From a virus, in the IMG/VR virus record IMGVR_UViG_3300048536_000332, positions 1 to 40,882 of that record: 40,882 nucleotides of DNA. One strand, 5' to 3'. Numbering within the stretch: position 1 is the first letter of the stretch; the number at the start of each line of letters is the position of its first letter. The notes under the pieces were generated by a model, which saw only the letters and a list, made by a program, of their open reading frames with translations, did not search any database and was not told the origin of the DNA. The position numbers and the translations under genes are program-made. Shown piece after piece: positions 179 to 40,347 of this stretch.

Positions 179-182
179 GGTT
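1..182. repeat. Terminal direct repeat, left copy (matches 40701-40882)
   Basis: The first 182 bases recur at the right end of the window. The copies differ at two positions: G128 versus A40828 and G134 versus A40834. This is either the closure overlap of a circular or circularly permuted assembly, or a true T7-style terminal redundancy. It cuts through the start of a leftward gene, which is complete only at the right end. Confidence 0.95.
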
Positions 183-213
183 TCAAGTGGTGGTGGTGTG
201 TGGTGTGTTGGTA
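179..213 (-). promoter_or_regulatory. CA-rich leader before the 178 start
   Basis: On the minus strand, CAACACACCACACACCACC is followed by ACCACTTGAAACC, directly abutting the ATG at 178. There is no Shine-Dalgarno. This is the longest instance of the leader shared by most leftward genes, and it fills almost the whole gap to the preceding gene's stop at 218. Confidence 0.7.
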
Positions 214-217
214 GTGA

Positions 218-445
218 TCAGCAGCTGACGGGATACGCAATGTCTTCAATCGCGCTGGCGTAATACTGATCAGCTAGGTCAGCAGTCCAGTCCGCGTGAT
301 TGATCATGCGATAAGCCCATTTGCTGGTTTCATCGCAGGCCTTGTAATGAGCTGCCCTGTCGTATTGGCCTGAATGCTTACGGCCTAGCTCAAGGTCCGC
401 ATCCCTGGCGTTCAAGTACTCGTTGATCACTTGATCGATAGTCAT
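218..445 (-). CDS. Hypothetical small protein (75 aa)
   Basis: A 75-residue acidic, helical-looking protein with no signal peptide or membrane segment (starts MTIDQVINEYLNARDADLEL). I do not recognise a family. The start at 445 is supported by the CA-rich leader ending one base upstream. It sits in a leftward cluster of short genes separated by 25-40 bp gaps that consist almost entirely of that leader. Its position resembles the small host-takeover proteins of T7-like early regions, but that is inference from place and size only. Confidence 0.7.
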   Translation of the reverse strand: MTIDQVINEYLNARDADLELGRKHSGQYDRAAHYKACDETSKWAYRMINHADWTADLADQYYASAIEDIAYPVSC

Positions 446-472
446 GGTTCCAAGTGGTGGTGGTGTGTGTGG
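446..472 (-). promoter_or_regulatory. CA-rich leader before the 445 start
   Basis: On the minus strand, ACCACACACACCACCACCAC then TTGGAACC abut the ATG at 445. It differs from the 179-213 copy by one base in the TTGAAACC part. It decides the start of the 75-residue gene. Confidence 0.7.
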
Positions 473-607
473 TTACCAGTCTTTGACGTAAGCGTCAGCA
501 GCAGTTTTCGCTTCAGCGCGAGTCTTGAAAGCGCCATGGCGGATAGCTAGCGATGTGCGGCACTGGAAGTAATAGAGCCCTTTGATTTGGAAGATTCGGT
601 AAGTCAT
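473..607 (-). CDS. Hypothetical small protein (44 aa)
   Basis: A 44-codon frame from the ATG at 605-607 to TAA at 473-475. It encodes MTYRIFQIKGLYYFQC followed by an Arg/Ala/Lys-rich helix ending AYVKDW. The start lies directly after a copy of the CA-rich leader, which is the main reason to call such a short frame. The beta-then-helix pattern is plausible for a tiny folded protein. No family is recognised. A 19-base homopolymer lies upstream of the leader. Confidence 0.6.
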   Translation of the reverse strand: MTYRIFQIKGLYYFQCRTSLAIRHGAFKTRAEAKTAADAYVKDW

Positions 608-636
608 TTTGAAGGTGGTGGTGGTGTGTGGTGTTC
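608..636 (-). promoter_or_regulatory. CA-rich leader before the 607 start
   Basis: On the minus strand, AACACCACACACCACCACC then ACCTTCAAA run into the ATG at 607. The element is the same as at the neighbouring genes but with a degenerate 3' part (TTCAAA for TTGAAACC). Confidence 0.6.
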
Positions 637-638
637 TA

Positions 639-657
639 TTTTTTTTTTTTTTTTTTT
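639..657. repeat. T19 homopolymer (A19 on the leftward transcript)
   Basis: A run of 19 T on the plus strand, just upstream of the CA-rich leader of the 473-607 gene. On the leftward transcript it would be an A-rich 5' tract. The length may be inexact because homopolymers are error-prone in sequencing. Confidence 0.9.
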
Positions 658-718
658 GGATGCCAGATAGATAAGTGAGAACTGATGGGAATCAGTCTCA
701 ACTCAGCTATCAGAGCTA

Positions 719-931
719 TCAGCCATCCATACGGCTTGCAGCGTGCAACGGGATAACACCAACGGCAGGTGCAATCAGTGCAGCTAACGCCAGCAGACTG
801 ATCTGTTCTGAATTCAGACCTGGACGGTTGTTCACAAGTGATCGGTCAACGTCATGCATCAACACTGCAAAACAGCTGATACCAGCCATTGCACAGCTAA
901 CAGACGTGCCAATCAATAAAGACTTCAACAT
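719..931 (-). CDS. Small membrane protein (70 aa), unknown function
   Basis: The ATG complementary to 929-931 begins MLKSLLIGTSVSCAMAG, and the frame ends at 719. Residues about 4-22 form a hydrophobic segment (signal anchor or first TM), and residues about 45-62 a second one (ISLLALAALIAPAVGVI), with a polar loop between them. The start is fixed by a CA-rich leader at 932-954; the longer in-frame start further upstream would place the leader inside the gene. It is the first gene of the leftward arm after the gene-free divergent region. A small membrane protein here could act on the host envelope, but nothing in the sequence proves it. Confidence 0.6.
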   Translation of the reverse strand: MLKSLLIGTSVSCAMAGISCFAVLMHDVDRSLVNNRPGLNSEQISLLALAALIAPAVGVIPLHAASRMDG

Positions 932-954
932 GGTTTCAAAGGTGGTGGTGTGTT
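932..954 (-). promoter_or_regulatory. CA-rich leader before the 931 start
   Basis: On the minus strand, AACACACCACCACC then TTTGAAACC abut the ATG at 931. It supports the 70-residue frame over the longer upstream start. Confidence 0.7.
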
Positions 955-992
955 GCCAGTGCAGTGCACCAGTGAACAAAACCTAGCAACTT

Positions 993-1010
993 ATTTGCTG
1001 ATCTGCAAAT
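993..1010. promoter_or_regulatory. 18-bp imperfect palindrome, candidate operator
   Basis: ATTTGC and GCAAAT flank T-GATC-T; only the T/T pair flanking GATC breaks perfect symmetry. It lies about 60 bp upstream of the first leftward gene. A related TGCAAA..TTTGCA dyad occurs at 8525-8541 before the SSB gene. Confidence 0.35.
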
Positions 1011-1268
1011 GGTTCGGTGCGGTGGTGGTGATGGCATGCCTCTCTCTTGCACCCCCTCACACCCTCTCAGCCCCCTCTCACGTCCCCTGCAGCAGGCCTC
1101 TCACCCCTGCCTGCTGACGTTGTGAACCCTCACCAACTCACCCGCCTTCCTGCCCCTTACAGCTGTCAGTTCTCCCCTATTGCCTGGCCTAAGCAAAGGA
1201 TTTCAAGCCATACCAGCAGGTCTCAGCCATAGGTCTGCCGAATTCCTGCCGATCAGAAAAGAAAGGAA

Positions 1269-1313
1269 GACCCCCCTCCCCCCCCCTCCTCATTTCGACG
1301 ACCCCCCTCCCCC
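1269..1313. repeat. 14-bp C-rich direct repeat
   Basis: GACCCCCCTCCCCC occurs at 1269-1282 and again at 1300-1313, the first copy running on into further C. It belongs to a strongly strand-asymmetric C tract. Confidence 0.7.
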
Positions 1314-1340
1314 TCAGAAAAAAAGGAAGGACTCAAGATC

Positions 1341-1382
1341 TTTGAAGGCCCCCTCTGGGGGTCAAAGCGTCCCGCGCCGGGA
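1341..1382. other. Two adjacent hairpins
   Basis: Hairpin 1 (1341-1366) has TTTGA/TCAAA outer and CCCCC/GGGGG inner stems with a TCT loop and an AGG bulge. Hairpin 2 (1370-1382) has TCCCG/CGGGA with a CGC loop. There is no T-run after either, so they are more likely origin or RNA-processing structures than terminators. Confidence 0.45.
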
Positions 1383-1528
1383 AATAAACCCATCACATCG
1401 CACGACCCCAAAAATGGGAAACGAGCTGTTGCCCGGAGGGCTAACCCAACCTTTGCAATGGCTTCACGGCTCTATTCGCTGCAGAGGCTGTTCAGGCTGT
1501 TGGCTGCTGTGTGCCATTGATACCGGAG

Positions 1529-1556
1529 TTGACAGGCCTGCATCGAGAGTTGGATG
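1529..1556 (+). promoter_or_regulatory. Weak candidate sigma70-type promoter
   Basis: A perfect TTGACA lies at 1529-1534, but the best -10 at the right distance (TGGATG or similar near 1551-1556) is poor. It is upstream of the RepL-like gene. Only the -35 match supports it. Confidence 0.2.
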
Positions 1557-1621
1557 ACACCCCACTGTTATCTCCGGCTGAATGGGTCCACTGTCGTAAG
1601 ACTTAAGAGAGGTGTACGGAA

Positions 1622-2266
1622 ATGCAGTGGCAGAAACTCGTTACCTGTGCAAAAGTAATTGGGGCTATCGATTTCGCTATGAGTGAACGCAGACGACGAC
1701 TGGATTCTTTTGCAGAGAAGGTTAGAGTTAGGCCATCTGATCTCTTTATCAAGGTCCATATGGAAAGGATCACGGGGGCGATGTTGATGAGAGATCCAGA
1801 CCTCATGCCTCGTGATGTAGCGATCCTGCTGTGCCTGATTGGTGAAATGGACCCTGGAACGGGAAGGATCAATCTCTGTGCATCTGAATTGGCAAGGAAG
1901 TGCGACACAAGACAATCAACCGTTGCTATGTCTTTGAGCCGACTGAAGAAGAAGCTGTTGGTGGTTCCTCGCCAGGACAAAGCGAGCAAGGCTTATTACA
2001 TGCTGGTCAATCCTGATTTCGCTTCTGTTGGTGGAGATAGAAGCAGGGCAATTGCAGCAAAGCAATTCAAGACTGAGTGGATTGCTGCATTGATGGAAGA
2101 GACCGGTGGAGATAGAGAGCGAGCCCTGGCGTCATGGGAGTCATTGATTGATGCCGGTAACGCCGTAGACGAAAGACAAGTTGAGATTGAAAAGGAACAG
2201 GACATTGCTCGCCAGGAAGCTGATGTCGCGTTGCAGAAATATCTTGCTACTGTTGGTGCAAGCTGA
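1622..2266 (+). CDS. Winged-helix DNA-binding protein, RepL-like (possible replication initiator)
   Basis: A 214-residue basic protein. Residues about 62-133 look like a winged helix: a helix (MPRDVAILLCLIG), then an ASELARKCDTRQSTVAMSLSRL helix-turn-helix at about 86-108, then a wing ending in YYMLVNPDF (125-133). A recognition helix followed by a wing that ends in a Y-M-x-NP motif is typical of RepL plasmid initiators and related DNA-binding proteins. The C-terminal third is charged and helical. An SD-like GAGAGG lies about 8 bases before the ATG. It is the first rightward gene, next to a C-rich hairpin region. In a phage with no visible DNA polymerase, primase or helicase it is the best candidate initiator. 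It could equally be a transcription regulator. Confidence 0.6.
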   Translation: MQWQKLVTCAKVIGAIDFAMSERRRRLDSFAEKVRVRPSDLFIKVHMERITGAMLMRDPDLMPRDVAILLCLIGEMDPGTGRINLCASELARKCDTRQSTVAMSLSRLKKKLLVVPRQDKASKAYYMLVNPDFASVGGDRSRAIAAKQFKTEWIAALMEETGGDRERALASWESLIDAGNAVDERQVEIEKEQDIARQEADVALQKYLATVGAS

Positions 2267-2421
2267 TTGGACGAGCGGGTTTCCCATGACGTCTATCAGG
2301 GTCGACGCCAATTAGCCCAGAGGGATGAACGGTTCGGTACCACCGCAAAGCCCATTCCTCGCACCCCAATTGCCCAGTAGGATGGCTAGGTCATCCAGGG
2401 TGGTTCCTGTTTGATACACAT

Positions 2422-2445
2422 TGGTTTCATCCAGTGTGGTGTGTG
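2422..2445 (-). promoter_or_regulatory. Orphan CA-rich leader-like motif
   Basis: On the minus strand, TTGCACACACCACAC then TGGATGAAACCA lead to an ATG at 2421, but the frame stops after 11 codons (14 from the ATG inside the motif). It is a relic, a leader-peptide site, or evidence that the motif has a role other than starting translation. Confidence 0.45.
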
Positions 2446-2449
2446 CAAG

Positions 2450-2481
2450 AGCCCGGTTGTCCTTGTGATGATCGGGCTTTT
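2450..2481 (+). terminator. Probable rho-independent terminator after the RepL-like gene
   Basis: AGCCCG (2450-2455) and CGGGCT (2473-2478) form a 6-bp GC-rich stem with a 17-base loop, followed by a short T-run to 2481. The loop is long and the tail short, so it is moderate in strength. Confidence 0.5.
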
Positions 2482-2622
2482 GTCTGAAACTCTTTACCCC
2501 ATCCGCCTTGTTGAACAAATAGCTGTAATGCTGCGGGACGATATTTAATACCGCGATAACAAAGCCATAAATTTGCTGGGTAAACTCTAGGGCTAGCATT
2601 TAAGAGCATCTATGTTCCATCA

Positions 2623-2964
2623 ATGAAAAGAGCATTGCTTTTAGCTGCATTGACCCTAATGGCAGCCCCTGCTGTAGGTCAGTCAGTAACGAAAGAGATC
2701 AGTCGTGGTGATGCCACCAACATCCGTTCCTGTCAATCGGAGTTCGGTGGGAAATTCGATGACGTCTGTTACAACAGGGTCACGAGTGCATTGTTCTGGT
2801 TGGGTCCATTGCCAACACCTGTTTCTGTGACAAAGGAACGAGTGACGCAATTGAACTGTGATCGCCGTGTGGATTACAAGGCTGGGACTGATCGCGGGGA
2901 CATTGCTCGTGAGTTCTGTCCAAAGGTGGGTGTATTGCCCAACATCTTGACGATGGCCCGTTAG
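2623..2964 (+). CDS. Secreted cysteine-containing protein with signal peptide (113 aa)
   Basis: The N-terminus MKRALLLAALTLMAAPAVGQ is a classic Sec signal peptide, with a basic n-region, a leucine/alanine core and a cleavage region near residues 17-20. The mature part is about 94 residues, polar, with several cysteines (C-Q-S-E-F, V-C-Y-N, N-C-D-R and F-C-P contexts), suggesting a small disulfide-bonded domain in the periplasm. No SD is seen before the ATG. No family is recognised. The gene stands alone between the terminator at 2481 and the frameshift gene. A role in lysis, superinfection exclusion or lysogenic conversion is possible but unsupported. Confidence 0.75.
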   Translation: MKRALLLAALTLMAAPAVGQSVTKEISRGDATNIRSCQSEFGGKFDDVCYNRVTSALFWLGPLPTPVSVTKERVTQLNCDRRVDYKAGTDRGDIAREFCPKVGVLPNILTMAR

Positions 2965-2990
2965 AGCAGAAGAGGCTTAACCTGTCTCTA

Positions 2991-3006
2991 TTGCACTACT
3001 GCACTG
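2991..3006 (+). promoter_or_regulatory. Candidate phage promoter element
   Basis: TTGCACTACTGCACTG lies just before the ATG at 3010. A near copy, GCACTACTACACTG, occurs before the fibre gene (about 30877-30890), and a related CTGCACCACTGCAAC lies before the capsid gene (15932-15946). It is proposed as a phage RNA polymerase site by recurrence only. Confidence 0.3.
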
Positions 3007-3009
3007 CGC

Positions 3010-3216
3010 ATGGCACACACAACAACGGGAAGCGTCTATTTACCCAATGGTTATCGGCTTGCTTTCAATTGCGATTCTGTTGTGCCAGCGAGTGTGGCGA
3101 CAAAGAAAGCGCAGGCGTATGCCGAACGTACAGGGAAGACAATTTACGTTCCTGGGCTAGGTACTTTTTCATCTACACCACCAGCACCACCAGCTGATCC
3201 CATAAAAAAGGTTTAG
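3010..3216 (+). CDS. Short product of a frameshift gene (68 aa)
   Basis: The zero-frame product is 68 residues: a compact N-terminal part (MAHTTTGSVYLPNGYRLAFN), then a Pro-rich linker (TPPAPPADPIKK), then V-stop at 3214-3216. The last sense codons ATA AAA AAG contain the canonical -1 slippery heptamer A-AAA-AAG (3204-3210). Slippage fuses this product to the Ig-like extension in the -1 frame. It lies directly upstream of the large terminase gene. No family is recognised for the N-terminal part. Short phage structural proteins extended by Ig-like domains through frameshifting are a known theme, so a minor decoration or tail protein is a fair guess. No SD precedes the ATG. Confidence 0.7.
   Translation: MAHTTTGSVYLPNGYRLAFNCDSVVPASVATKKAQAYAERTGKTIYVPGLGTFSSTPPAPPADPIKKV
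3204..3210 (+). promoter_or_regulatory. Programmed -1 frameshift slippery site A-AAA-AAG
   Basis: The heptamer is correctly phased to the 3010 frame (ATA-AAA-AAG). After slipping, reading resumes at GGT (3210), giving K-K-G-L-A-P-T-L-T-G-S-A-V-V-G, which is exactly the usual entry into an Ig-like strand. A modest CCAAC/GTTGG stem (from 3219) lies downstream. A lost A in this homopolymer would produce the same picture and cannot be excluded. Confidence 0.65.
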
Positions 3217-3812
3217 CCCCAACGTTGACTGGTTCAGCTGTTGTTGGTGAAACACTTACAGCGACAGCTGGCACCTTTAGCGGTGGGGAAGGAGCACTCA
3301 CGGTCACAACGACCATCAAGAAGTCGGATACGGGTTCTGGTGGCTGGTCAAATGCCACATCGAACCTGACTTATGAGTTACAGGCAGGTGATGACAGCAA
3401 GTATTTCCGTGTCGCCAGTAACGCCAAGGATGATGCTGGCCAATCGCTGAACAGCAATTCAGCTGTCGTTGGTCCTGTCATTACTCCAACAGAGATCAAG
3501 TTCGTCTCTATCACTGTTGATGGAGTGCTGACTACTTATGGAGAACCAATTTATTGCAAGGTTAACGATGCGTTAGCGGTTGAAGCTGCAATTACTGGTG
3601 ATGCAAGCCCGTCATACAAATGGGAAGCTCGCGGTAATTACCCCATGGTGGTTTCAGAGCAAGCTGCGATTACAACGCTCACCTTCCCTCAAGAAGGCAG
3701 TGCCACTGTCACTTTGACGGTGACTGATCGAACCGCGACAGATTCACCCATTACTTATGGGATGACTTTCTACATCGCTTCTCAAGCGGAATGGGACGCT
3801 CTGCATCCATGA
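3210..3812 (+). CDS. Ig-like extension, made by -1 frameshifting from the 3010 gene (fusion about 267 aa)
   Basis: About 200 residues in the -1 frame. The first Ig/cadherin-like repeat has the hallmark PTLTGSAVVGETLTATAGTFSGG (split here as PTLTGSAVVG + ETLTATAGTFSGG). A second domain follows at about 110-195, ending with alternating strands (SATVTLTVTDRTATDSPI). Phage Ig-like domains sit on virion surfaces and may bind host glycans. An independent start would need TTG at 3225, poorly placed behind AAGG at 3208, and would remove the first strand (GLAP). This favours frameshift synthesis over separate initiation. The stop TGA at 3810-3812 overlaps the terminase ATG at 3809 (ATGA), so the two genes are translationally coupled. 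Confidence 0.65.
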   Translation, partial: GLAPTLTGSAVVGETLTATAGTFSGGEGALTVTTTIKKSDTGSGGWSNATSNLTYELQAGDDSKYFRVASNAKDDAGQSLNSNSAVVGPVITPTEIKFVSITVDGVLTTYGEPIYCKVNDALAVEAAITGDASPSYKWEARGNYPMVVSEQAAITTLTFPQEGSATVTLTVTDRTATDSPITYGMTFYIASQAEWDALHP

Positions 3813-5587
3813 GTTGGCAGCCATTGCCAGAAGAACTGGAACCACTGGCACATTTCACGACATACATCCTGCGTGAGCTGTCTTTAGCTGATACACCAAC
3901 TAAACAACAGCTAGGGATTCTTAACTATTTAGAGCACGGACCTGATAGACAGATTGTCACTGCATATCGGGGATGCGGAAAAAGTTTCCTTACTTCTGTC
4001 TACGCCTTATGGCGTTTAATGCAGGATCCGTTCCGTGAAAAGATCCTGTTGGTGGGAGCGACGGCAGATAAGGCCATTGAAATATCCACGTTCATGTTGC
4101 GGTTGGTGCGGGACGTTGACATCCTCGAATCACTGCAGCCGCTGCCTGATGGCCGTGGATCCGTTAATGCATGGGATGTCGGCCCATCAGTTGTTGATCA
4201 AAGTCCGTCAGTCCGCGCAGTTGGATTGTTAAGCCCAAGCTTGACCGGAAAGCGTTGTACGGCAGCGGTCATCGACGATTGCGAAACATTATCCAACTCA
4301 ATCACGGTTCTGAAGCAGGAACGATTAGCTGCTGCAATTACAGAGATTGAGGCGATCAGAAAGCCGTCAGTGAAAGGGGAGTTACCACGAAAGACAATCT
4401 TTCTTGGTACGCCGCACCTTGAATCAAGTTTGTATTTGAGGCTGAGACGAGAAAGGAATTATCGAGCAAGATTCTGGCCGGCACGTTTTCCTGATCCTGC
4501 TTCTGAAGCTTGGGATTCCTATGAAGGATGTTTGGATCCAGCTATTGCAGCAGAAGTAGAAGATGATCCATCGCTGGTAGGTGAACCAACCGATCCTGAA
4601 CGTTTTGGTCATGACGAGTTATTGGCACGGGAGATGTCAATGACACGCGCAAGTGTCCAACTCCAGTATCAACTCGATTGCCGGTTATCAACGCTTGAGC
4701 GTTATCCAATACGTCTTGGTGATCTGATCGTTATGGATCTCGATGGCAAGGCATTGCCTGAGGTTGTGAGTTGGGCATCAGGACCAGAGCAGGTGATTCA
4801 AGATCTGGTTTGTATTGGTCTTGGCGCTGATCGGCACTATCACCGTCCGATGGTTGTGCAGGGCTGGGTGTCAGCAAAGGAGACGTGGCGCTGCGTTCTT
4901 TCGATCGATCCCTCAGGCCGAGGTCGCGATGAAATGGCTTGGACAATTCTCGCTGAATACTCGGGAAATTTCTTTGTGCTGGAGTCCGGTGGCACTACCC
5001 AGGGTTATTCCGAGGAAGTGCTGAAGATGCTGGCGATGAGGGCCAAGCGTTGGAACGTGACGCAGATCGTTGTGGAATCCAACTTTGGCGATGGCCTCTT
5101 TGCTGCTTTGCTGCAGCCGGTGATGAATAAGGTTCACCCTTGTGGCATTGAAGAGATCAGGGTCAACCAGCAGAAGGAACGCCGTATCTGTGACCAGCTG
5201 GCACCGCTCACCCAGCAGCACAGGCTGATCGTTAGCAGCGATGTGATCCGTAAGGATTATCAAGACGCTGAACGCAATAACGATCGCGGCTATGAACGCT
5301 CACTGCTGTTCCAGATGAGCCGCATAACGATGGACAGAAATTCGCTCTCAGCAGATGACCGAATCGATAGTTTGGCTTTGGCCTGTCAATTCTTCACTGA
5401 AGCAGCAGCGCAAGATCAGAACCGTGTTGCCGCAAATCGTGAATACGAGATGTTCATGAACCAGATCGAAATGGCTGCTGATGAGACAGGAGCCAGTATC
5501 GATGCACTGGCTCTTGGTCTACCAACCAAATCCATTGGACGGTCGTATGGAGGCTCTAGGCGTGGCGTTCCTGGTCGGCACCTTTAA
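3809..5587 (+). CDS. terL: Terminase large subunit, T7 gp19-like
   Basis: A 592-residue DNA packaging motor and headful/terminus nuclease (T7 gp19 is about 586). The ATPase domain has Walker A TAYRGCGKS at residues 51-59 and Walker B AAVIDDCE near 152-158. The C-terminal RNase H-fold nuclease has its acidic residues in LSIDPSGRGRDE (about 366), VVESNFGDG (about 422) and DDRIDSLAL (about 516). I chose ATG 3809, which overlaps the preceding stop (ATGA), rather than the in-frame ATG at 3791. The small-subunit candidate lies on the opposite strand and overlaps its 3' end by 32 bases, unlike T7, where gp18 is upstream on the same strand. Confidence 0.95.
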   Translation: MSWQPLPEELEPLAHFTTYILRELSLADTPTKQQLGILNYLEHGPDRQIVTAYRGCGKSFLTSVYALWRLMQDPFREKILLVGATADKAIEISTFMLRLVRDVDILESLQPLPDGRGSVNAWDVGPSVVDQSPSVRAVGLLSPSLTGKRCTAAVIDDCETLSNSITVLKQERLAAAITEIEAIRKPSVKGELPRKTIFLGTPHLESSLYLRLRRERNYRARFWPARFPDPASEAWDSYEGCLDPAIAAEVEDDPSLVGEPTDPERFGHDELLAREMSMTRASVQLQYQLDCRLSTLERYPIRLGDLIVMDLDGKALPEVVSWASGPEQVIQDLVCIGLGADRHYHRPMVVQGWVSAKETWRCVLSIDPSGRGRDEMAWTILAEYSGNFFVLESGGTTQGYSEEVLKMLAMRAKRWNVTQIVVESNFGDGLFAALLQPVMNKVHPCGIEEIRVNQQKERRICDQLAPLTQQHRLIVSSDVIRKDYQDAERNNDRGYERSLLFQMSRITMDRNSLSADDRIDSLALACQFFTEAAAQDQNRVAANREYEMFMNQIEMAADETGASIDALALGLPTKSIGRSYGGSRRGVPGRHL

Positions 5588-8478: not shown

Positions 8479-8562
8479 GTTGAAAAACTTCATGCGATCC
8501 CCCTTGACGGATCGCACCTAGACCTGCAAACTTTATTTGCACACCACATGTGACGAGCATTC
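8479..8562. promoter_or_regulatory. Two hairpins and a palindrome between RNA polymerase and SSB genes
   Basis: TGCGATCC (8493-8500) and GGATCGCA (8509-8516) form a perfect 8-bp stem with an 8-base loop. TGCAAA (8525-8530) and TTTGCA (8536-8541) form a 6-bp stem. CACATGTG (8545-8552) is a palindrome. There is no T-run, so RNA processing or a promoter/operator is more likely than termination. Confidence 0.4.
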
Positions 8563-15054: not shown

Positions 15055-15913
15055 CATCATGCCGAGTCAAACCGTCCCCGTAGGGTTTGACCCACAATTT
15101 GCAGATGCTGAGGGCCTGATCGCCCCAGGTCAGGAAGAGCTTGCTCAGCAATTAATGGGGGGCGAGCCACAGCCTGAATCGCAAGGTGAGCCACAAAGCG
15201 ATTTAATCGGCGGCAAGTTCAACACTCAAGAGGATCTGCTCAAGGCGTATCAAGAGCTTGAAAGAAAGCAGAGCCAGTCTTCCCCGGCTGACTCCGGTAA
15301 CCAGCAGTCTGACGGTTACACAGCGGAACAGGCAACAGAGATCTATGGCGATGAAATCGTCAACTCTGTCAGTGAAGCCGGCTTGAGCATGGCTGACTTG
15401 ATGTGGCAAGCCGATAACGGTGGAGACATCAGCGAGCATTACGACGCACTAGCTGCAGCTGTCGGCGTACCCCGTCAGGTGGTGGAGAACTACGTTGCCA
15501 AAGCCCAGGCTGGTGGTGGCGAGTCTGCCGGGATGTCTGAGGCTGAAGAGGCTCAGATCATGGATGAAGTTGGCGGCCAGGATGCATTCCAAGAGTTGTC
15601 TGGTTGGGCCAAAAGCAATCTCGATCCTGCTGAATTGTCTGACTACAACGGGATCGTTGATAGCGGCAATAAGCAAGCGATTCGCTGGGCATTAAAAGCA
15701 ATGCAGGCTCGATCAACTTCTGGTGCGCCATCAGAGCCAAAGCTCATTCGTGGTCAGGCTCCCGCGACTCAGGTCCGTAAGTTCAACTCTCAATCAGAAG
15801 TGTTGGAAGCAATGAACAAGCGCGACAGCCGTGGTCGGAAGCTTTACGAAACAGACACTGAATATCAACGCAAGTTTGCTGAACTGCTTAGCAATAGCGA
15901 CGTTTTCAGTTAA
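15047..15913 (+). CDS. Capsid assembly scaffold, T7 gp9-like
   Basis: 288 residues (T7 gp9 is 307). Very acidic and Gln/Glu/Ser-rich with no globular hydrophobic pattern in the first 100 residues; the C-terminal part is helical (FNSQSEVLEAMNKRDSRGRK, then LYETDTEYQRKFAELLSNSD). The recurring E-x-L-K-A-Y-Q-E-L-E element near residue 65 is common in cyanophage scaffolds. SD AGAGGAA precedes ATG 15047, inside the end of the portal gene. It lies between portal and capsid as expected. Confidence 0.88.
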   Translation: MADIMPSQTVPVGFDPQFADAEGLIAPGQEELAQQLMGGEPQPESQGEPQSDLIGGKFNTQEDLLKAYQELERKQSQSSPADSGNQQSDGYTAEQATEIYGDEIVNSVSEAGLSMADLMWQADNGGDISEHYDALAAAVGVPRQVVENYVAKAQAGGGESAGMSEAEEAQIMDEVGGQDAFQELSGWAKSNLDPAELSDYNGIVDSGNKQAIRWALKAMQARSTSGAPSEPKLIRGQAPATQVRKFNSQSEVLEAMNKRDSRGRKLYETDTEYQRKFAELLSNSDVFS

Positions 15914-30909: not shown

Positions 30910-30918
30910 CCTCTAGGC

Positions 30919-34962: not shown

Positions 34963-34966
34963 TTAG

Positions 34967-35179
34967 TTGAAGAAGCCTGCCCTGATGTTGGTCGCTGGAG
35001 TCATTGGATTCCAGCTGCTAATCATCAGCGGCACGTTGATCGGTTGCTTCTACATCTATCCAAAGATTCAAGACAGAGACCCAGGCAATGAGCGATGCTC
35101 AGGCAACCAAGTCTCTGAACTAATGGCGCAGATCACAGCCTCAGCTTTTGCACTGTATGCAGCCGAAGCTGGTCGCTAG
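34967..35179 (+). CDS. Small single-span membrane protein, candidate holin/lysis protein
   Basis: 70 residues from TTG 34967 (an internal ATG at 34985 would remove six). One strong membrane segment at about residues 6-31 (LMLVAGVIGFQLLIISGTLIGCF) is followed by a polar tail with a short amphipathic helix. Its location right after the fibre gene is where T7 places the class II holin gp17.5, and its size fits. There is no clear SD. Alternative: a small virion or superinfection-exclusion membrane protein. The endolysin gene is nearby but on the opposite strand, an unusual separation of holin and lysin transcripts. Confidence 0.55.
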   Translation: MKKPALMLVAGVIGFQLLIISGTLIGCFYIYPKIQDRDPGNERCSGNQVSELMAQITASAFALYAAEAGR

Positions 35180-35270
35180 AATGACAAAGCCATCTCATAA
35201 GAATGGTTTCCTCCGCTGCCCGAAGCATCAGCGGTGAGCCCTGACCCCCGAGAAGGCAGGGCAATGCTTC
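35180..35270. terminator. Nested hairpin between convergent arms (35222-35270), probable bidirectional terminator or structured RNA
   Basis: GAAGCAT (35222-35228) pairs with ATGCTTC (35264-35270), and inside it GCCCTG (35238-35243) pairs with CAGGGC (35257-35262). It lies exactly where the rightward and leftward arms meet and ends at the stop of the leftward gene. No T-run on either strand, so termination is inferred from position. Confidence 0.45.
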
Positions 35271-35708
35271 TCATAAATCAACCATTCGACGTGGTGTTTT
35301 GATATTTGAAAACACAACGCCGTTGGCAATCTTCTGAATAGAAAGCGTATCCACCCCGTACTGCATAGCTGTATAGGCTTGCGTTTGCACGTTGTTCTTC
35401 AATAGATATTTGATCTCAGCAATCTCTCGATTTGATAGTGAGTTTGCCTGACACATGGAAGCTCTACGTTTTGCCTGCTTAGCTCGTAGATCAGCGAGAT
35501 ACCTGCCTTGTTCCTTTGGCGTCATCACAGGAACAACCTTCTCTCCTGCAGGGAGATCATCTAGCTGTTGAATTGTCTTGATCTTGGTCAGACATTTAGA
35601 GCATTTCCGATACCTGATCTTGATTCCATACCTTCTGGTTGAACAATAGGTATGAGTCTGGTGTCCACAATTAGGGCACAAGACAACAGATGCTGTTGAT
35701 GCAGTCAT
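35271..35708 (-). CDS. Zinc-ribbon plus helix-turn-helix protein
   Basis: 145 residues. Residues 10-36 form a zinc ribbon: C-P-N-C-G, C-S-T-R-R, then C-S-K-C. This resembles the NrdR-type ribbon, but no ATP-cone follows. The C-terminal 45 residues (SNREIAEIKYLLKNNVQTQA..YGVDTLSIQKIANGVVFSNI) look like a helix-turn-helix of the kind appended to phage homing enzymes and regulators. No HNH motif is present. The start at 35708 is preceded by a CA-rich leader variant. It is the last gene of the leftward arm. A DNA-binding regulator is the simplest reading. Confidence 0.65.
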   Translation of the reverse strand: MTASTASVVLCPNCGHQTHTYCSTRRYGIKIRYRKCSKCLTKIKTIQQLDDLPAGEKVVPVMTPKEQGRYLADLRAKQAKRRASMCQANSLSNREIAEIKYLLKNNVQTQAYTAMQYGVDTLSIQKIANGVVFSNIKTPRRMVDL

Positions 35709-35730
35709 GAAATGGTGTGGTGTGGTGTGT
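35709..35730 (-). promoter_or_regulatory. CA-rich leader before the 35708 start
   Basis: On the minus strand, AACACACCACACCACACCATTTC abuts the ATG (read as AACACACCACACC + ACACCATTTC). Here the ACC repeat is present but the TTGAAACC part is replaced. Confidence 0.6.
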
Positions 35731-35765
35731 TTAGTTATTGAATTGGTGTGCGGCCATACCCTGGA

Positions 35766-36404
35766 CTATTGATTCCAAAGTTCGATCTCGGCTTCGCGTC
35801 GTCTACGCAGTCCGGCTTCAGTAGAAGTTCCAGGGTTGACGTAGAGCCTGAGGGCTGCCGGTACGTCGGTCCATCGCTTATCCCTGAGGCATCCCGTGAT
35901 GGTATTGAAGCCACCGCTGCCGTAAAAATTAGCGCCGACGTTGAAGCTGAAACTAAGAAGACAACCGCGTTGGCCATCAGACATCTCATTCCAGAACGGG
36001 ATAGTGGACTCTTGTGTTCCGTAGAAATATTCCAAATGGAATTTGAGTAACTCTTCACCCCTTGCTTGAGTGATTGGCTGATCTGAATACTGAACTTTTA
36101 CGCCGTTCTCATAGAACGTGGCCCCGTATCCGATCGTTGGAATGCCAACCCCATCGTTGTAAGGGGCAGACCTGAACCCTTCAAACTCTTTGATCAGATC
36201 AACTGCATCTTGTGGGATACCGCTGTCTGTCTTGGGTGGTGATTCCCTGTAGCGCACAACCCAATTCGCTGTCTCCTCCAGGAGGCTGGCAGGCATGGCT
36301 TCATACAGCAGGGCAACAGCATCGGACTGCTGGGCCTGCCCTTCCTCTGACCCTTTGAAGTATTTGAAGAAGTTCTCGAAGCCTGATGGCGTGAGCTTGG
36401 TCAT
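35766..36404 (-). CDS. Endolysin, GH24 phage lysozyme
   Basis: 212 residues. It cleaves the glycan strands of peptidoglycan to release progeny. The GH24 domain starts near residue 62 with the catalytic set E75, D84 and T90 in EGFRSAPYNDGVGIPTIGYG; the spacing (9 and 6) matches T4 lysozyme E11/D20/T26. Later motifs: G-Q-R-G-C-L-L-S-F-S-F-N-V-G-A and RRRREAEIELW at the end. The first 60 residues are a non-lysozyme helical extension without a signal peptide, so release needs a holin. It lies on the leftward strand with integrase and regulators, unlike the T7 amidase. A shortened CA-rich leader precedes it. Confidence 0.92.
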   Translation of the reverse strand: MTKLTPSGFENFFKYFKGSEEGQAQQSDAVALLYEAMPASLLEETANWVVRYRESPPKTDSGIPQDAVDLIKEFEGFRSAPYNDGVGIPTIGYGATFYENGVKVQYSDQPITQARGEELLKFHLEYFYGTQESTIPFWNEMSDGQRGCLLSFSFNVGANFYGSGGFNTITGCLRDKRWTDVPAALRLYVNPGTSTEAGLRRRREAEIELWNQ

Positions 36405-36417
36405 TCATGTGGTGTGA
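36405..36417 (-). promoter_or_regulatory. Short CA-rich leader before the endolysin
   Basis: On the minus strand, CTCACACCACATGA abuts the ATG at 36404. It keeps ACACCAC only. No SD is present. Confidence 0.45.
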
Positions 36418-36432
36418 GTCCATGCCATTTTG

Positions 36433-36446
36433 ATGCACAGGTGCAT
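36433..36446. promoter_or_regulatory. Dyad ATGCAC-AG-GTGCAT, candidate operator
   Basis: A perfect inverted repeat with a 2-base spacer upstream of the endolysin. The same half-site pair recurs at 36936-36958 with wider spacing, and a single GTGCAT lies by the candidate promoter at 38464. Confidence 0.4.
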
Positions 36447-36454
36447 GATTGCGA

Positions 36455-36607
36455 GTGAATTGGACTGCGATTCTGAAAAACGGCAACATCCCTGAACCAA
36501 TAGGCAGGCCAGAGGTGATCGAGGCCATAAAAAAATCCCCCTACATCAAGCGCAAGGGGAAGGCAAAGGCGAAGCCAACTAAGCGTCGGTCATCTGGTCA
36601 AAAATGA
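36455..36607 (+). CDS. Hypothetical basic small protein (50 aa), rightward within the leftward arm
   Basis: GTG 36455 opens MNWTAILKNGNIPEPIGRP and continues to a Lys/Arg-rich tail (KRKGKAKAKPTKRRSSGQK) and TGA at 36605-36607. TTG 36449 is an alternative with AGGTG six bases upstream. The N-P-x-P-G-R type N-terminus and the basic tail look like a genuine small phage protein and not random sequence. It converges with the neighbouring leftward regulator, overlapping its 3' end by 29 bases. No family is recognised. It may be a nucleic-acid-binding peptide. Confidence 0.45.
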   Translation: MNWTAILKNGNIPEPIGRPEVIEAIKKSPYIKRKGKAKAKPTKRRSSGQK

Positions 36608-36890
36608 GCAGCCCTTTCTTGCTAAGCCTGACTCTCAACCTCCTGCCTTCAGCGGGGTCCGGGTAGCACTCAACTAATCCCATTCCTTCCTTGCGGTGGG
36701 TTGGGTCCACTCCCATAGAAGTCAAAGATCTGGAAGCTGACGCATTGCTGAGATGAAAGAAGTTTTCGATGTCCTTGTAAGTGCAATTACGTGCTTCAGC
36801 AATGAACAGAAAAATCTGCAGGTGATGCAGGTACTGCTTGCCTGGCATCAGGTCACTGAAGATCGCTAGCTGACGTTGAAGGGTGATCAT
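36579..36890 (-). CDS. MarR-like winged-helix regulator (first of three related proteins)
   Basis: 103 residues from ATG 36890. This start is chosen over the upstream ATG at 36917 because a CA-rich leader (ACACCACCAAACCA) abuts it. The sequence reads as a winged helix: QIFLFIAEARNCTYKDIENFF, then HLSNASASRSLTSMG as recognition helix, and a wing with D-P-A-E-G-R-R-L-R-V-R-L-S-K-K-G. The protein at 37992-38309 has the same plan with matching D-P-K-E-G-R-R-L wing. It probably binds operators in the leftward arm and may govern integrase or lysis genes. Confidence 0.75.
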   Translation of the reverse strand: MITLQRQLAIFSDLMPGKQYLHHLQIFLFIAEARNCTYKDIENFFHLSNASASRSLTSMGVDPTHRKEGMGLVECYPDPAEGRRLRVRLSKKGLLIFDQMTDA

Positions 36891-36906
36891 TGGTTTGGTG
36901 GTGTGC
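36891..36906 (-). promoter_or_regulatory. CA-rich leader deciding the 36890 start
   Basis: On the minus strand, AGCACACCACCAAACCA abuts the ATG at 36890. By analogy with the other leftward genes it moves the start nine codons inside the longest frame. Confidence 0.55.
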
Positions 36907-36935
36907 TTGACCAACATATTTTACGGAAGCGGAGA

Positions 36936-36958
36936 GTGCATTGGATAACCCTATGCAC
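36936..36958. promoter_or_regulatory. Split dyad GTGCAT..ATGCAC
   Basis: GTGCAT (36936-36941) and ATGCAC (36953-36958) flank 11 bases in the gap between integrase and the regulator. The half-sites are the same as at 36433-36446. Candidate binding site of one of the winged-helix regulators. Confidence 0.3.
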
Positions 36959-36970
36959 TATCCACAGATG

Positions 36971-37975
36971 TCAGCTCTCCAACACCTCAGTGCAAGCAGC
37001 CAATGCGTGAGTGTTCACATGGAGGTAGCGGACACACGAACGGGCTGACGTCCATCCTCCGTAGGTCATGATCATCGCCAAAGAGATGTTCCCTTCAGCC
37101 AGACGTGTTGCGCAGGTGTGCCGTGTGCAGTGCGTTGTCAGCCTTGGGTCAGCAATGCCAACCAGCTGCTTGCCTTCATTGAACCAGTCCTTGAACGTGT
37201 CGTATTTCACGTTGAACATCCTGCTACCACTGCCCCGGTGCTGATACTTCTTAGCGATTGCCAAGGCCCTACGAGTCAGCGGCACTGAACCAAGATTGTT
37301 GGCCTTGCGATCCTCGAACGTCACCTTCTTCAGTGTGAAGTCCACATCCCAGATCTTCAGCTTTTCAATCTCACCCCATCGAGCACAGGTATCAAGCAGA
37401 AAGCAGAAGATGTCTGCCCCTTCCTCCCGGCCAGCCTTCTGGAAATATTCAATGAATGCGGCTTCCTCCTGCTTGCTAAACACCCTGTCCTTCAATGCTC
37501 TGGTTGCAATCTTCTTTGGAAACTTGGGGACATCAGAAATCAGCTTGTCGTCCAGTGCATCAGTAAAGATCGAGCGCAGGATGGCCAGCTTTTTATTGAC
37601 GGTTCCACCTGCATTCCCGGTGTTCACATAGTGCTGCTGCATTCCCACTAGGTCCATGCGATCGATCGCAGCCAGTGGTGTGTCACGGCCTAAAAAGTCC
37701 AGTACCTGATTGAGATAGCTGGTCACTGAATCTAGGGACTTAACGTTCGCCCAGCGATCAGCTAACGATCGCTTAGCAGCATCACCAAGCGTGATCGTGC
37801 TGTTCGTGCGAATCACATGTGCAGGTGACTCGGCACAAAAAAGCTCAGACAGCAGTTCACGTTGACGCTGCAATGCTGCTGCCTTGGTCTTGCAGAGTGC
37901 TGTCCGTCTAACGCCATTGCGTGAGACGGAAACGGTCCAGCCCTTGCGGGTCTGTGAGATGCCTTTGGTTTTCAT
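36971..37975 (-). CDS. int: Tyrosine recombinase (phage integrase)
   Basis: 334 residues. It would recombine attP with the host attB for lysogeny. The catalytic tetrad positions are present: R199 in TCARWGE, H282-x-x-R285 in THCTRHTCAT, W308 in GGWTSARS (W in place of the second His, as in many integrases), and the nucleophile Y317 in VRYLHV. The N-terminal 60 residues are an arm-binding type domain (ISQTRKGWTVSVSRNGVRRT) and 60-150 the core-binding SAM-like domain. A CA-rich leader precedes it. It sits between two winged-helix regulators. The candidate att site is 2.4 kb away near 40369. Confidence 0.94.
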   Translation of the reverse strand: MKTKGISQTRKGWTVSVSRNGVRRTALCKTKAAALQRQRELLSELFCAESPAHVIRTNSTITLGDAAKRSLADRWANVKSLDSVTSYLNQVLDFLGRDTPLAAIDRMDLVGMQQHYVNTGNAGGTVNKKLAILRSIFTDALDDKLISDVPKFPKKIATRALKDRVFSKQEEAAFIEYFQKAGREEGADIFCFLLDTCARWGEIEKLKIWDVDFTLKKVTFEDRKANNLGSVPLTRRALAIAKKYQHRGSGSRMFNVKYDTFKDWFNEGKQLVGIADPRLTTHCTRHTCATRLAEGNISLAMIMTYGGWTSARSCVRYLHVNTHALAACTEVLES

Positions 37976-37991
37976 TGTGGTGGTGTGTGTT
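37976..37991 (-). promoter_or_regulatory. CA-rich leader before the integrase
   Basis: On the minus strand, AACACACACCACCACA abuts the ATG at 37975 and nearly touches the stop of the preceding gene at 37992. Confidence 0.6.
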
Positions 37992-38309
37992 TTAGATGCT
38001 GAGCAGTTGTCGATAGAGGGCTTTCCCTTTTGGGGTGAGCATGATGATCAGCCGCCGGCCTTCTTTTGGATCCTTCTCGACATACATCAGGTCAAAGCCT
38101 GGTGTGCCCTTACGACTGGTCTGGCCTAAGGCCATGACCGTGCGGCTCACCGCTGAGTTCGTCAGATCCAAGGCTTCCATGACCTTTTGAAAAGTGCATG
38201 GCTCGTTCTGAGCCACCACCAGAAAAATCTGCGCGAAATGAAGCGGAAAGTGAGTTGGCTCAAGCACCGCAAAAGCGGCAAGAGCTGATTCCAGTCGATC
38301 GTGATCCAT
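37992..38309 (-). CDS. MarR-like winged-helix regulator (second of three)
   Basis: 105 residues. QIFLVVAQNEPCTFQKVMEAL, then DLTNSAVSRTVMALG as recognition helix and a wing D-P-K-E-G-R-R-L-I-I-M-L-T-P-K-G-K. It is similar in length and pattern to the 36579 gene, so probably a paralogue. Unlike its neighbours it lacks the CA-rich leader and has AGGA (CCTAGGA) about ten bases before ATG 38309. A candidate sigma70-type promoter at 38475-38503 points into it. The distinct start signal and its own promoter suggest that it is expressed separately, perhaps as the lysogeny repressor, and reads on into integrase. Confidence 0.75.
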   Translation of the reverse strand: MDHDRLESALAAFAVLEPTHFPLHFAQIFLVVAQNEPCTFQKVMEALDLTNSAVSRTVMALGQTSRKGTPGFDLMYVEKDPKEGRRLIIMLTPKGKALYRQLLSI

Positions 38310-38474
38310 GACCCATTCCTAGGACAAAAACCATCTAGATGATACGCAATTATCTCCGGTTTCCCTAGGGTCTCGATCACCTGGAAGGCAATCAGACCAG
38401 AGGGTCTGCGGATGTCAACTGCAAGCAAGATGCGAGCAGGGCTGTTCATGAAGCGTCACACCTGTGCATTAAAA

Positions 38475-38503
38475 AACATAGAGGCACGTCCTGCATTTGT
38501 AAA
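38475..38503 (-). promoter_or_regulatory. Candidate host-type promoter for the regulator/integrase genes
   Basis: On the minus strand, TTTACA (38503-38498), a 17-base spacer, then TATGTT (38480-38475). GTGCAT/ATGCAC half-site lies at the start point (38464-38469). A frame starting at 38449 and overlapping the regulator out of frame may be a leader or chance. The 206-bp gap 38310-38515 holds nothing else I can name. Confidence 0.4.
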
Positions 38504-38515
38504 CAGTAACGAGAA

Positions 38516-38848
38516 TCATTTGTTACCAGTTAATGCGCCAATCTCCTGCAGCAATTCAGTTCCCATCCCAGTCAGCGCAAGCTGTTTGCCCTGTTGGTGT
38601 GGGTGTGGCCTGCTCGCAACCAGTGCCACATGACCTTCAGAGAACCCCTTCCCTTTGACGTACTGACATGCACCAGTGAGCACGAGCAAGCGCCGGTAAA
38701 CAGTGTGTTGAGCAATGCCAGAAACCCTGACTAGCTCTGGGCCGTTATCAATTCCACGCCCAATCAGCGTCAATAAAAAAACGTCGTTCAGCTGCAGAAA
38801 GCCAAACGACGCAAGATCGATTCGTGAATCTTGCACTTTTGGGATCAT
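38516..38848 (-). CDS. Divergent winged-helix regulator (third of three)
   Basis: 110 residues. QLNDVFLLTLIGRGIDNGPELVR then VSGIAQHTVYRRLLVLTG as recognition helix, and a long loop or wing with HPHQQGKQLALTGMGTELL. Same overall layout as the other two regulators but diverged, with a longer wing. Start ATG 38848 overlaps the stop of the 42-residue gene (ATGA) and is also preceded by the CA-rich leader at 38849-38882, which here is part of that small gene's coding sequence. Confidence 0.65.
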   Translation of the reverse strand: MIPKVQDSRIDLASFGFLQLNDVFLLTLIGRGIDNGPELVRVSGIAQHTVYRRLLVLTGACQYVKGKGFSEGHVALVASRPHPHQQGKQLALTGMGTELLQEIGALTGNK

Positions 38849-38973
38849 CTCGGTTTCTTCCTGGTGGTGGTCTGTGGTGTGTTCTGTTCAGCGATCACCC
38901 TCAACAGGGCGATCACTTCATCAAGCTGGCCTTTGATCGCCTGTAGGTCGCGATCAGCGTTGGTGTTGTGCAT
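38845..38973 (-). CDS. Hypothetical small protein (42 aa)
   Basis: ATG at 38971-38973 opens MHNTNADRDLQAIKGQLDEV, a regular heptad-like helix (IKGQLDEVIALLRVIAEQ) ending with a basic T-T-T-R-K-K-P-R tail, stopping at 38845 inside the next ATG. The helix looks like a short coiled coil. The T-P-Q-T-T-T residues are simply the CA-rich leader translated, so the frame may be partly a by-product of that element. No SD; no family recognised. Confidence 0.45.
   Translation of the reverse strand: MHNTNADRDLQAIKGQLDEVIALLRVIAEQNTPQTTTRKKPR
38849..38882 (-). promoter_or_regulatory. CA-rich leader before the 38848 start, inside coding sequence
   Basis: On the minus strand, AACACACCACAGACCACCACC then AGGAAGAAACCGAG precede the ATG (first part read as AACACACCACAG + ACCACCACC). 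An AGGA is also present here. Confidence 0.5.
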
Positions 38974-39008
38974 TGGTTGAATTAGCGCGGTTCATTGTTT
39001 GGTGTCAC

Positions 39009-39377
39009 CTAGTCAAAATCACCCCGTTCCCATTGCTCTACAAATCGTTCCAATTCAGCTCGCCTGTAATCAGCACAATCACGCTTTGCAACGTCCCTTT
39101 GACGTGCAGCCTCTGCAGCCATTCCATCCCCTGGCCTCCAGCCATTGGCCTTCGCCCTAGTCGTCCAACGCCATTCACCCCTCTTGCGCCGGTATCTGAT
39201 CGCACCTGGCAGCTTCCAAAGCGAGAAAGCAATCGCTGAAATCACAATCGCTGGCCCAATCACGATCGATACCAGCCAACAGAAAAGCGAGGCTGCCACC
39301 ACTAACGACGGCACCCCCACAAGCAAAACACCAAGGCCTTTCACAACAAAGAAAGACCCTTTCAACGTTTTGTTCAT
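39009..39377 (-). CDS. Membrane protein with two N-terminal TM segments
   Basis: 122 residues. Residues about 8-30 (FFVVKGLGVLLVGVPSLVVA) and about 32-55 (CWLVSIVIGPAIVISAIAF) are two closely spaced membrane segments. The remaining about 65 residues are a basic/acidic cytoplasmic tail with many Arg, Trp and Glu. ATG 39377 overlaps the stop of the ArdC-like gene (ATGA), so the two are made together. No family recognised. The pairing suggests a joint host-takeover or exclusion role, which is inference from gene order. Confidence 0.65.
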   Translation of the reverse strand: MNKTLKGSFFVVKGLGVLLVGVPSLVVAASLFCWLVSIVIGPAIVISAIAFSLWKLPGAIRYRRKRGEWRWTTRAKANGWRPGDGMAAEAARQRDVAKRDCADYRRAELERFVEQWERGDFD

Positions 39378-40324
39378 GCCTCTTCAACCTCCTTGCCAAG
39401 AATCAAATTGCTCGCCTTGGTGGCATCACTGAGCACCTTAAAAAGCACCTTTGGACCTTCCTTAAGCACCTCTGCCCAGTTGCTTAGATAGGCCGCATGA
39501 TTCTGGGCATCACTGCTGATCTGCAGCCTGTTACACATCAAAAACGCACCTAGTTCAGCGACCAGTTCTTCCCTGGCATAGTCCTTTGAACCAAACCGCC
39601 CATATTTGCGGTTGAGTCGCTTCTCTGCCCCTGTTGAGTGGATGCACTCGTGGCACCAAGTCGCATATAGACCTGGCTGCGATAACCACAGCTGACGCTC
39701 GGGCATGGTGATTGTGTCACCGCCTATCGAATAGAAAGCGCGATCACCTGACCATTTCGTGTCAACTTCCCATTTGCCTAGGGCCTCTTCTGCAGCTGCG
39801 TGTCTCTCCATTTCAGGCGCAACAATCGCCGAGCCAGTAGCCGCCAAGATCGCAGAATCAAGCTTCGCTTGGCTCTCTTCATCCTTGCCCTTTAGATCGG
39901 CAACGTTAAAAACAGCTGTTGGCTTGTAGCTCATCCACTGGCGAGTAACTGATTCAGGCTCGCCACCGCCTACAGGTTCAACCTCATCGGTGTACTTGTT
40001 GAGTTGAGGCCTGACGATATAGGCAGCTTTTGAACCTTTGATTGGCCACCATCCCTTTTGCTTGGCTTGGCCAGCACCACACCACAATCCGAGCGGGTGT
40101 CCTTTGATTGATTGATACATCTCCAACAGAATTGGATTTGATCCCCTGTAAGCGTTGCCAGTGATCAGATTGCGGTGGCCACCCTGGCCTCCTGCCTTCC
40201 ATTCTTTGCGCCATGGATTCTTGCCTGCTTCCATTAGCTCAACAAGTGCTTGGCAGATCTTCTCCTCTGCTGTTGGTCCTTCGTACTTCTTGCGTGCCTT
40301 CTTAGGCCGTGATGTTGTAGTCAT
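39374..40324 (-). CDS. ArdC-like antirestriction protein (ssDNA-binding plus zincin metallopeptidase)
   Basis: 316 residues. Residues 14-140 match the ArdC N-terminal ssDNA-binding domain (KNPWRKEW; GGHRNLITGNAYRGSNPILL; KGSKAAYIVRP). Residues about 195-310 form the zincin-like domain: HECIH (225-229, zinc ligands H225/H229 and catalytic E226), then the downstream glutamate helix REELVAELGA with E257. The tail A-Y-L-S-N-W-A-E-V-L is typical of the family. ArdC proteins protect incoming plasmid or phage DNA from host restriction. It is preceded by a CA-rich leader and coupled to a membrane protein. Confidence 0.9.
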   Translation of the reverse strand: MTTTSRPKKARKKYEGPTAEEKICQALVELMEAGKNPWRKEWKAGGQGGHRNLITGNAYRGSNPILLEMYQSIKGHPLGLWCGAGQAKQKGWWPIKGSKAAYIVRPQLNKYTDEVEPVGGGEPESVTRQWMSYKPTAVFNVADLKGKDEESQAKLDSAILAATGSAIVAPEMERHAAAEEALGKWEVDTKWSGDRAFYSIGGDTITMPERQLWLSQPGLYATWCHECIHSTGAEKRLNRKYGRFGSKDYAREELVAELGAFLMCNRLQISSDAQNHAAYLSNWAEVLKEGPKVLFKVLSDATKASNLILGKEVEEA

Positions 40325-40347
40325 GGTTTCAAGTGGTGGTGTGTTGA
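40325..40347 (-). promoter_or_regulatory. CA-rich leader before the ArdC-like gene
   Basis: On the minus strand, CAACACACCACCAC then TTGAAACC abut the ATG at 40324. The TTGAAACC part is identical to that at 179-213. Confidence 0.7.

Follow-up and report, generated by a model that had tools for sequence, protein, structure and literature searches.

What does a run of nothing but A and C do in front of the start codons of otherwise unrelated phage genes? This question is raised by the IMG/VR virus record IMGVR_UViG_3300048536_000332, which was analysed over its whole length of 40,882 nucleotides (40.9 kb; hereafter, the window) and in which such CA-rich leaders precede most genes of the leftward arm. 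Genes for a T7-type terminase, RNA polymerase, portal and capsid were identified in the window, and the leftward arm encodes lysozyme, MarR-like regulators, a tyrosine integrase, ArdC and a protein of the Kyano_Gp96 family. The window is a temperate T7-like cyanophage; its closest annotated relatives are the Stopalavirus S38C3 and the Synechococcus phage S-SRP02 (freshwater lake). A search with the integrase family also returned matches in Cyanobium bins, and the leader-bearing virus family infects Synechococcus and Cyanobium. In the following, we argue that the tract is probably a translation-initiation leader, independent of a Shine-Dalgarno (SD) sequence, of the early and lysogeny genes in integrase-carrying T7-like cyanophages.

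A leader was called where an A/C-only run of at least 11 nucleotides (nt) lies within the 38 nt upstream of an ATG. It is present at 9/12 leftward and 0/23 rightward starts of the window (Fisher P=3.1e-6), against a background of 0.9% (plus strand) and 1.9% (minus strand) of all window positions with such a run in their upstream 38 nt. The nine starts (178, identical with 40878, as well as 445, 607, 931, 35708, 36890, 37975, 38848 and 40324) are those named in an initial annotation made from the sequence alone, which was also right in that rightward genes lack the leader and that start 36404 carries a weaker copy, here a tract of 9 nt. Its further claims that the leader directly abuts the ATG and keeps a constant position are too strict, as the distance between tract and ATG varies from 0 to 14 nt. 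The core ACACCACCACC occurs 15 times in the window with at most one mismatch, compared to 0.8 occurrences expected from shuffles. An exact copy of the tail TTGAAACC, in which the leaders were said usually to end, stands before three starts only (178, 931 and 40324), start 445 having TTGGAACC instead; this tail is just part of the A/C dialect of the phage. The A/C-only tracts of the nine starts are 11-26 nt long; they are listed here together with the genes and hairpins referred to below.

187..212, minus strand: 26-nt A/C tract, ATG 178, Kyano_Gp96-like protein (identical with the gene at 40423-40878 because of the terminal repeat)
454..474, minus strand: 21-nt A/C tract, ATG 445; together with the TTGGAACC tail, it takes up the whole interval between the TAA stop upstream and the ATG
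614..635, minus strand: 22-nt A/C tract, ATG 607, open reading frame (ORF) of 44 amino acids
941..955, minus strand: 15-nt A/C tract, ATG 931; a short hairpin (within CTGGTGCACTGCACTGG) lies directly upstream
35713..35732, minus strand: 20-nt A/C tract, ATG 35708
36408..36416, minus strand: weak 9-nt A/C tract, ATG 36404, lysozyme
36890..36905, minus strand: 16-nt A/C tract, ATG 36890, MarR-like regulator
36971..37975, minus strand: tyrosine integrase gene, with leader
37975..37993, minus strand: 19-nt A/C tract, integrase ATG 37975, after the stop codon TAA of the MarR-like gene
37992..38309, minus strand: MarR-like regulator gene without A/C leader in all eight genomes compared, nearly all of which have a CCTAGG palindrome upstream of it
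38862..38883, minus strand: interrupted A/C tract (ACACACCACAGACCACCACC), followed by AGGA, ATG 38848
39009..39377, minus strand: leftward gene with the SD sequence AAGGAGG instead of an A/C leader
39374..40324, minus strand: ArdC-like gene, with leader
40333..40346, minus strand: 14-nt A/C tract, ATG 40324, ArdC-like antirestriction protein
40349..40395, minus strand: pair of hairpins on the 5' side of the ardC tract, CCAGGGTTCGATTCCCTGG (resembling a tRNA T-arm) and TGCCCTT-CTTGT-AAGGGCA

Starts 178 and 40878 represent a single gene, because a 182-bp direct repeat (1-182 and 40701-40882, with 99% rather than 100% identity) is found at both ends of the window; the record appears to be a complete circularly permuted or terminally redundant genome, for which IMG/VR lists no exact end repeats. 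An internal contrast is provided by the two leftward genes lacking the leader: a perfect AAGGAGG precedes the one starting at 39377, while the one starting at 38309, which is MarR-like, has the palindrome CCTAGG in place of a leader.

The initiation regions themselves differ between the two classes of genes. When GGAG, AGGAG, GGAGG, AAGGA or GAGGT at positions -18 to -5 was taken as an SD sequence, such strings occurred in 0/9 (window), 1/5 and 0/4 of the A/C-led genes, as opposed to 6/26, 18/42 and 16/40 of the other genes. In line with the initial annotation, the leader is not an SD sequence, for which complementarity to the 16S 3' end (CCUCC) at -5 to -12 would be expected; start 38848 additionally carries AGGA. 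In the window, predicted folding of the initiation region is much weaker for A/C-led genes (median -2.8 versus -7.3 kcal/mol for the others, P=7e-5), and the predicted unpaired probability is correspondingly higher (0.70-0.74 versus 0.43-0.49). The A/C bias extends into codons 2-8 (0.64 versus 0.53, P=1.6e-7), with N-termini rich in threonine (22% versus 7%). A/C-only RNA cannot pair with itself, which would explain why composition rather than sequence is conserved. Furthermore, several tracts occupy the whole gap between the upstream stop codon and the ATG and therefore leave little room for a separate promoter.

The leader is not confined to the window. Among 33 non-redundant integrase loci of relatives (less than 85% mutual identity), 30 have an A/C run of 11 nt or more ahead of the integrase ATG, in genomes of 37-68% GC. 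Across 80 viral integrase loci, a run of at least 12 nt precedes the start of 165/1712 ORFs, with no other two-letter alphabet exceeding 9. In 36 genomes, 127 leader-bearing ORFs, of which a few are probably spurious, belong to 66 protein families. In S-SRP02, the leader-bearing gene class has the same orientation as the structural genes; the association with leftward genes, correct for the window, does not extend to the relatives, and the leader follows the early and lysogeny gene class instead. Host chromosomes, with genes roughly called, carry it at 1/322 and 3/168 called ORFs (about 1%); start-context composition derived from naive ORFs was flat, being dominated by spurious GC-rich ORFs, so that the count at any internal start (at most 3.2%) was used as an upper bound. 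No enrichment above background was found in five ordinary cyanopodoviruses, LUZ100 and HTVC019P, and the Zooshikella relative, the sole non-cyanobacterial one, has a canonical AAAGGAGG in place of the A/C leader. These contrasts indicate that the signal belongs to a cyanophage gene class and neither to the integrase itself nor to the host chromosome. The claim was thus checked against a motif equally frequent elsewhere or absent from relatives, and it survived, with a low background in the window and the leader present in relatives.

Individual leaders can nevertheless be lost. In the relative G007 (L026, at 2070-2125), ArdC is 96% identical to that of the window, but its A/C tract has been replaced, while an upstream TTGCCC..GGGCAA hairpin is kept with changes; leader turnover is therefore faster than gene turnover. 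Fixed strings proved of little use: ACACACCACCACC-N-ATG alone returned at least 120 stretches in IMG/VR, nearly all with single matches, and is not diagnostic; TTGAAACCATG with two mismatches was at chance level; and exact CACCACCACYTGAAACCATG had one match, in an unrelated contig without an array of such leaders, so that the full string appears private to the window phage.

It is the dialect of the leaders, and not their composition or position, that changes from genome to genome. On the integrase and ArdC genes, the relative G003 (70% identical in RNA polymerase) has ACACACCACCACCAC-GAGAAACC-ATG, S38C3 has AACCAACCAACCAAC-GGACTCAAACCA-ATG, S-SRP02 has CCCAACAACCACCACC-..-ATG and three more distant phages have AACAACAACCACCAACC-..-ATG. 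The repeat units thus differ (ACC, AACC, CAA), and the exact sequence which the initial annotation took for the element is only one version of it. Within a genome, leaders of unrelated genes are more similar (15.44) than under permuted genome labels (12.19 +/- 0.20, maximum 13.20), a difference visible by eye, although its exact significance is uncertain because kinship was removed only at the 85% integrase cut; leaders of the same gene across genomes reach 13.37. In addition, specific non-simple 16-mers recur before ATG, including CCCAACAACCACCACC, with up to six copies in one contig. As the dialect is shared within genomes, leaders are spread or corrected within them, in agreement with the earlier view that they are maintained or copied between unrelated proteins.

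Among the options put forward initially, an SD-independent translation enhancer fits these observations best, ahead of a regulatory protein or small RNA and of a mobile regulatory cassette. A/C-only RNA, being unable to pair with itself, would keep the 20-40 nt around the ATG single-stranded, and the 30S subunit could load on the tract, probably via ribosomal protein S1, and reach the ATG without SD pairing. Selection would then act on A/C-only composition and position rather than on the letters, whose uniformity inside a given genome could result from leaders being copied from one another or from adaptation to a factor. In cyanobacteria, genes without an SD carry signals of C and A close to position -15, and non-SD initiation in such phyla has been tied to S1 and/or leaderless mRNA (PMC5397173); SD-independent genes compensate through weak structure of the initiation region (PMC6847405). 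Several points weigh against this reading. With leaders at about 1% of the roughly called host ORFs (at most 3.2% at any start), the tract is not the ordinary signal of the host, and the role of S1 would have to be carried over from other bacteria. The sharing of strings such as CCCAACAACCACCACC within a genome exceeds what openness alone needs, one SRP02 leader retains GGAG, and the tract is replaceable, given its loss from the ArdC gene of G007.

The homogenised dialect is also what a trans-acting factor would predict. In such a scenario, which we regard as unlikely, an RNA-binding protein from phage or host, or a GU-rich small RNA similar to GcvB, would bind the tract and so switch the entire early and lysogeny set at once, and the dialect would be the recognition code of each phage's factor. 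The shared non-simple 16-mers, which go beyond A/C composition, favour this idea, as does the targeting of CA-rich enhancers by the GU-rich region of GcvB (PMC3879156). However, no candidate factor was found, the Rfam scan of the window returned no RNA, and the repeat units vary while position and composition persist. Moreover, copying between leaders accounts for the sharing equally well. The two ideas are not exclusive.

In many relatives, a hairpin stands ahead of tracts other than that of the integrase, its end no more than 2 nt away from the tract. A test based on the strongest stem anywhere showed little, whereas an offset-resolved test gave a peak at -2 to +1 of the tract start. The resulting module mostly occupies 42-60 nt before the tract. 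In 59/66 cases it opens with the stop codon that ends the preceding gene, and in 65/66 an ORF follows; its order is stop codon, covarying hairpin, competing hairpin, A/C tract and start codon. Strand A, which follows the UGA, and strand B form a helix around a GC stem that often has a UNCG-type loop, and B can alternatively pair with strand C beside the tract. The A:B helix is 92.6% paired with a covariation of 0.280 (at most 0.078 when slid), the competing B:C helix 96.1% with 0.408 (at most 0.140), and the whole hairpin of 17 pairs has 93.6% paired cells, 10 pairs changed on both sides and a covariation of 0.433 (at most 0.176), whereby the collecting pattern fixed parts of strand B and the first bases but not the remainder of A or C, and shared descent inflates the counts. 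The stop codon has another location in L064, yet the pairing at its usual position is retained there as AGA:UCU.

A covariance model of the module (R1) gave 136 matches in the 80 viral loci, a few of them reverse images of the palindrome, and also matched S-SRP02, S38C3 and S31C1. It had no match in the window or G003 (E up to 0.5), in ordinary cyanopodoviruses or in about 600 kb of host sequence, and among 42 genomes of the host genus the only match was in the phage-bearing contig of G013. The window carries simpler hairpins only. At the gathering score, Rfam matched only tRNAs, and none of the modules, in the seven relatives scanned; the window had no match up to E=1. Examples of module copies are:

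L067: 4810, 5727 and 6256
L097: 4669, 5331 and 6244
L017 (S-SRP02): 11605 and 12019
L018 (S38C3): 15700-15773

The predicted shape of the module, an imperfect intercistronic hairpin with an internal loop, resembles the RNase III sites of T7-like phages. RNase III exists in cyanobacteria (PMC10989914). We prefer a process-and-cap reading, in which a cut in the internal loop would free the 3' strand to refold as a 5'-terminal hairpin before an open A/C landing site. In predictions, RNA beginning at strand B folds with C in 63/63 cases and leaves tract and AUG 0.89 unpaired; in the intact module they are likewise open (0.87 unpaired). Alternatively, ribosomes terminating at the UGA could drive the module as a switch. 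An intrinsic terminator is unlikely, since no U-run follows, and so is a Rho-type site, as cyanobacteria lack Rho (PMC13289151). Tentatively, and with doubts prevailing, tract and module might together represent a novel kind of intercistronic phage RNA: a hairpin anchored at the stop codon and capable of two exclusive covarying pairings, in which cleavage or ribosome passage would give the downstream cistron a 5' hairpin and an SD-less A/C strip. Tract and module would be copied jointly along the early operon, in the dialect of the genome.

The direct and inverted repeats of these modules, and the position of leaders at the borders of small variable genes with similar copies before unrelated ones, could instead point to DNA: an operator or promoter part, or a linker for recombination of gene cassettes, with the modules as recombination sites. 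We consider this improbable, because the tract always lies on the coding strand directly before the ATG and its A/C bias enters the codons, while UNCG-type loops and compensatory pair changes indicate RNA, as does the pair at the stop position that persists as AGA:UCU in L064. No attC-type consensus of integrons was seen by eye in the modules. Exchange at leaders could still occur as a by-product. Finally, slippage of simple repeats or a 5' untranslated region (5'UTR) composition typical of the host, without a function of its own, is highly improbable: A/C repeats are indeed simple sequence and a mild C/A bias exists in cyanobacterial genes without an SD (PMC5397173), but host ORFs, the five ordinary cyanopodoviruses, LUZ100 and HTVC019P are at background, other two-letter runs are not enriched, the integrase leader is kept across genomes of 37-68% GC, and the contrast of 9/12 to 0/23 arises inside one genome.

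Further features of the region deserve mention. The CCTAGG-centred palindrome upstream of the MarR-like gene (window 38310-38345) has orthologous sites in seven relatives and is a candidate operator of this regulator; CCTAGGA repeats also precede a divergent gene in L067 (upstream of 3379-) and L097 (upstream of 3292-). Immediately before ardC, the tRNA T-arm-like GGCCAGGGAATCGAACCCTGGC (window 40374-40395, plus strand) is a possible piece of attP. Genes for tRNAs stand directly behind the integrase in L067, L097 and L064, and in S31C1 a tRNA overlaps the integrase end. Just upstream of the 607 leader, at 640-660, there are about 19 consecutive T (read as A in the leftward direction). The non-coding DNA that separates the divergent arms (1010-1330) has an unusual, C/T-rich composition and contains GGTGGTGGTGATGG, which is partly complementary to the leaders.

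SD-independent initiation is common in cyanobacteria, yet the cis signals behind it have been described only as statistical biases of a weak kind. With an A/C-only leader standardised on dozens of unrelated genes, this phage family constitutes a clean natural set of such signals, with host chromosomes, ordinary cyanopodoviruses and the Zooshikella relative available as contrasts. The leaders could be used as ready expression leaders for Synechococcus and Cyanobium and make small early genes of cyanophages easier to recognise; their analysis has also led to an unnamed structured RNA.

T7-like phages possess intercistronic RNase III processing hairpins, which are imperfect, of about 20 bp and with an internal loop. 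The modules of the relatives are likewise imperfect two-storey hairpins between genes of T7-like phages; unlike the T7 hairpins, they hold the upstream stop codon at their base, have a conserved competing hairpin and are followed by an A/C leader, and their cleavage is putative. Structured RNA in cyanophage 5'UTRs is also known from manA, wcaG and PhotoRC-II (PMC2864571), whereas no Rfam family, these three among them, matched the modules in the seven relatives or anything in the window, and the module occurs many times per genome together with an A/C tract. This structured module may deserve its own name.

The initial annotation knew of no named element of this kind; CA and ACA enhancers (PMC3879156) and start-associated phage repeats (PMC3203893) have been described. 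The SAS and ESAS repeats of cluster K mycobacteriophages lie a few nt before unrelated non-structural gene starts on one strand, some with an upstream inverted repeat, much like the leaders (PMC3203893). SAS, however, is a fixed 13-mer, GGGATAGGAGCCC, with the SD core AGGAG; the leaders lack both the 13-mer and an SD sequence, conserve composition alone between phages and are not SAS. With SD-independent initiation in cyanobacteria they share the missing SD, the weak start structure and the upstream C and A (PMC5397173; PMC6847405), but the host bias is weak and statistical, and the phage leader is nearly absolute in one gene class of a phage family. Closest are the ACA and CA enhancers of yifK, dppA and gltI, which are targets of GcvB: ACA motifs are strong translation enhancers there, with an A/C-rich single-stranded stretch upstream of the start and lenient spacing, and an ACAA repeat promotes initiation even without an SD (PMC3879156). 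The leaders, too, provide an A/C-rich, predicted single-stranded stretch near the start codon. While those enhancers assist an SD in single host genes, the phage tract is SD-less, phage-specific, A/C-only over 11-37 nt and placed before most genes of an arm; by analogy, the leader is best described as a so far undescribed variant of the SD-independent CA-rich translation enhancers.

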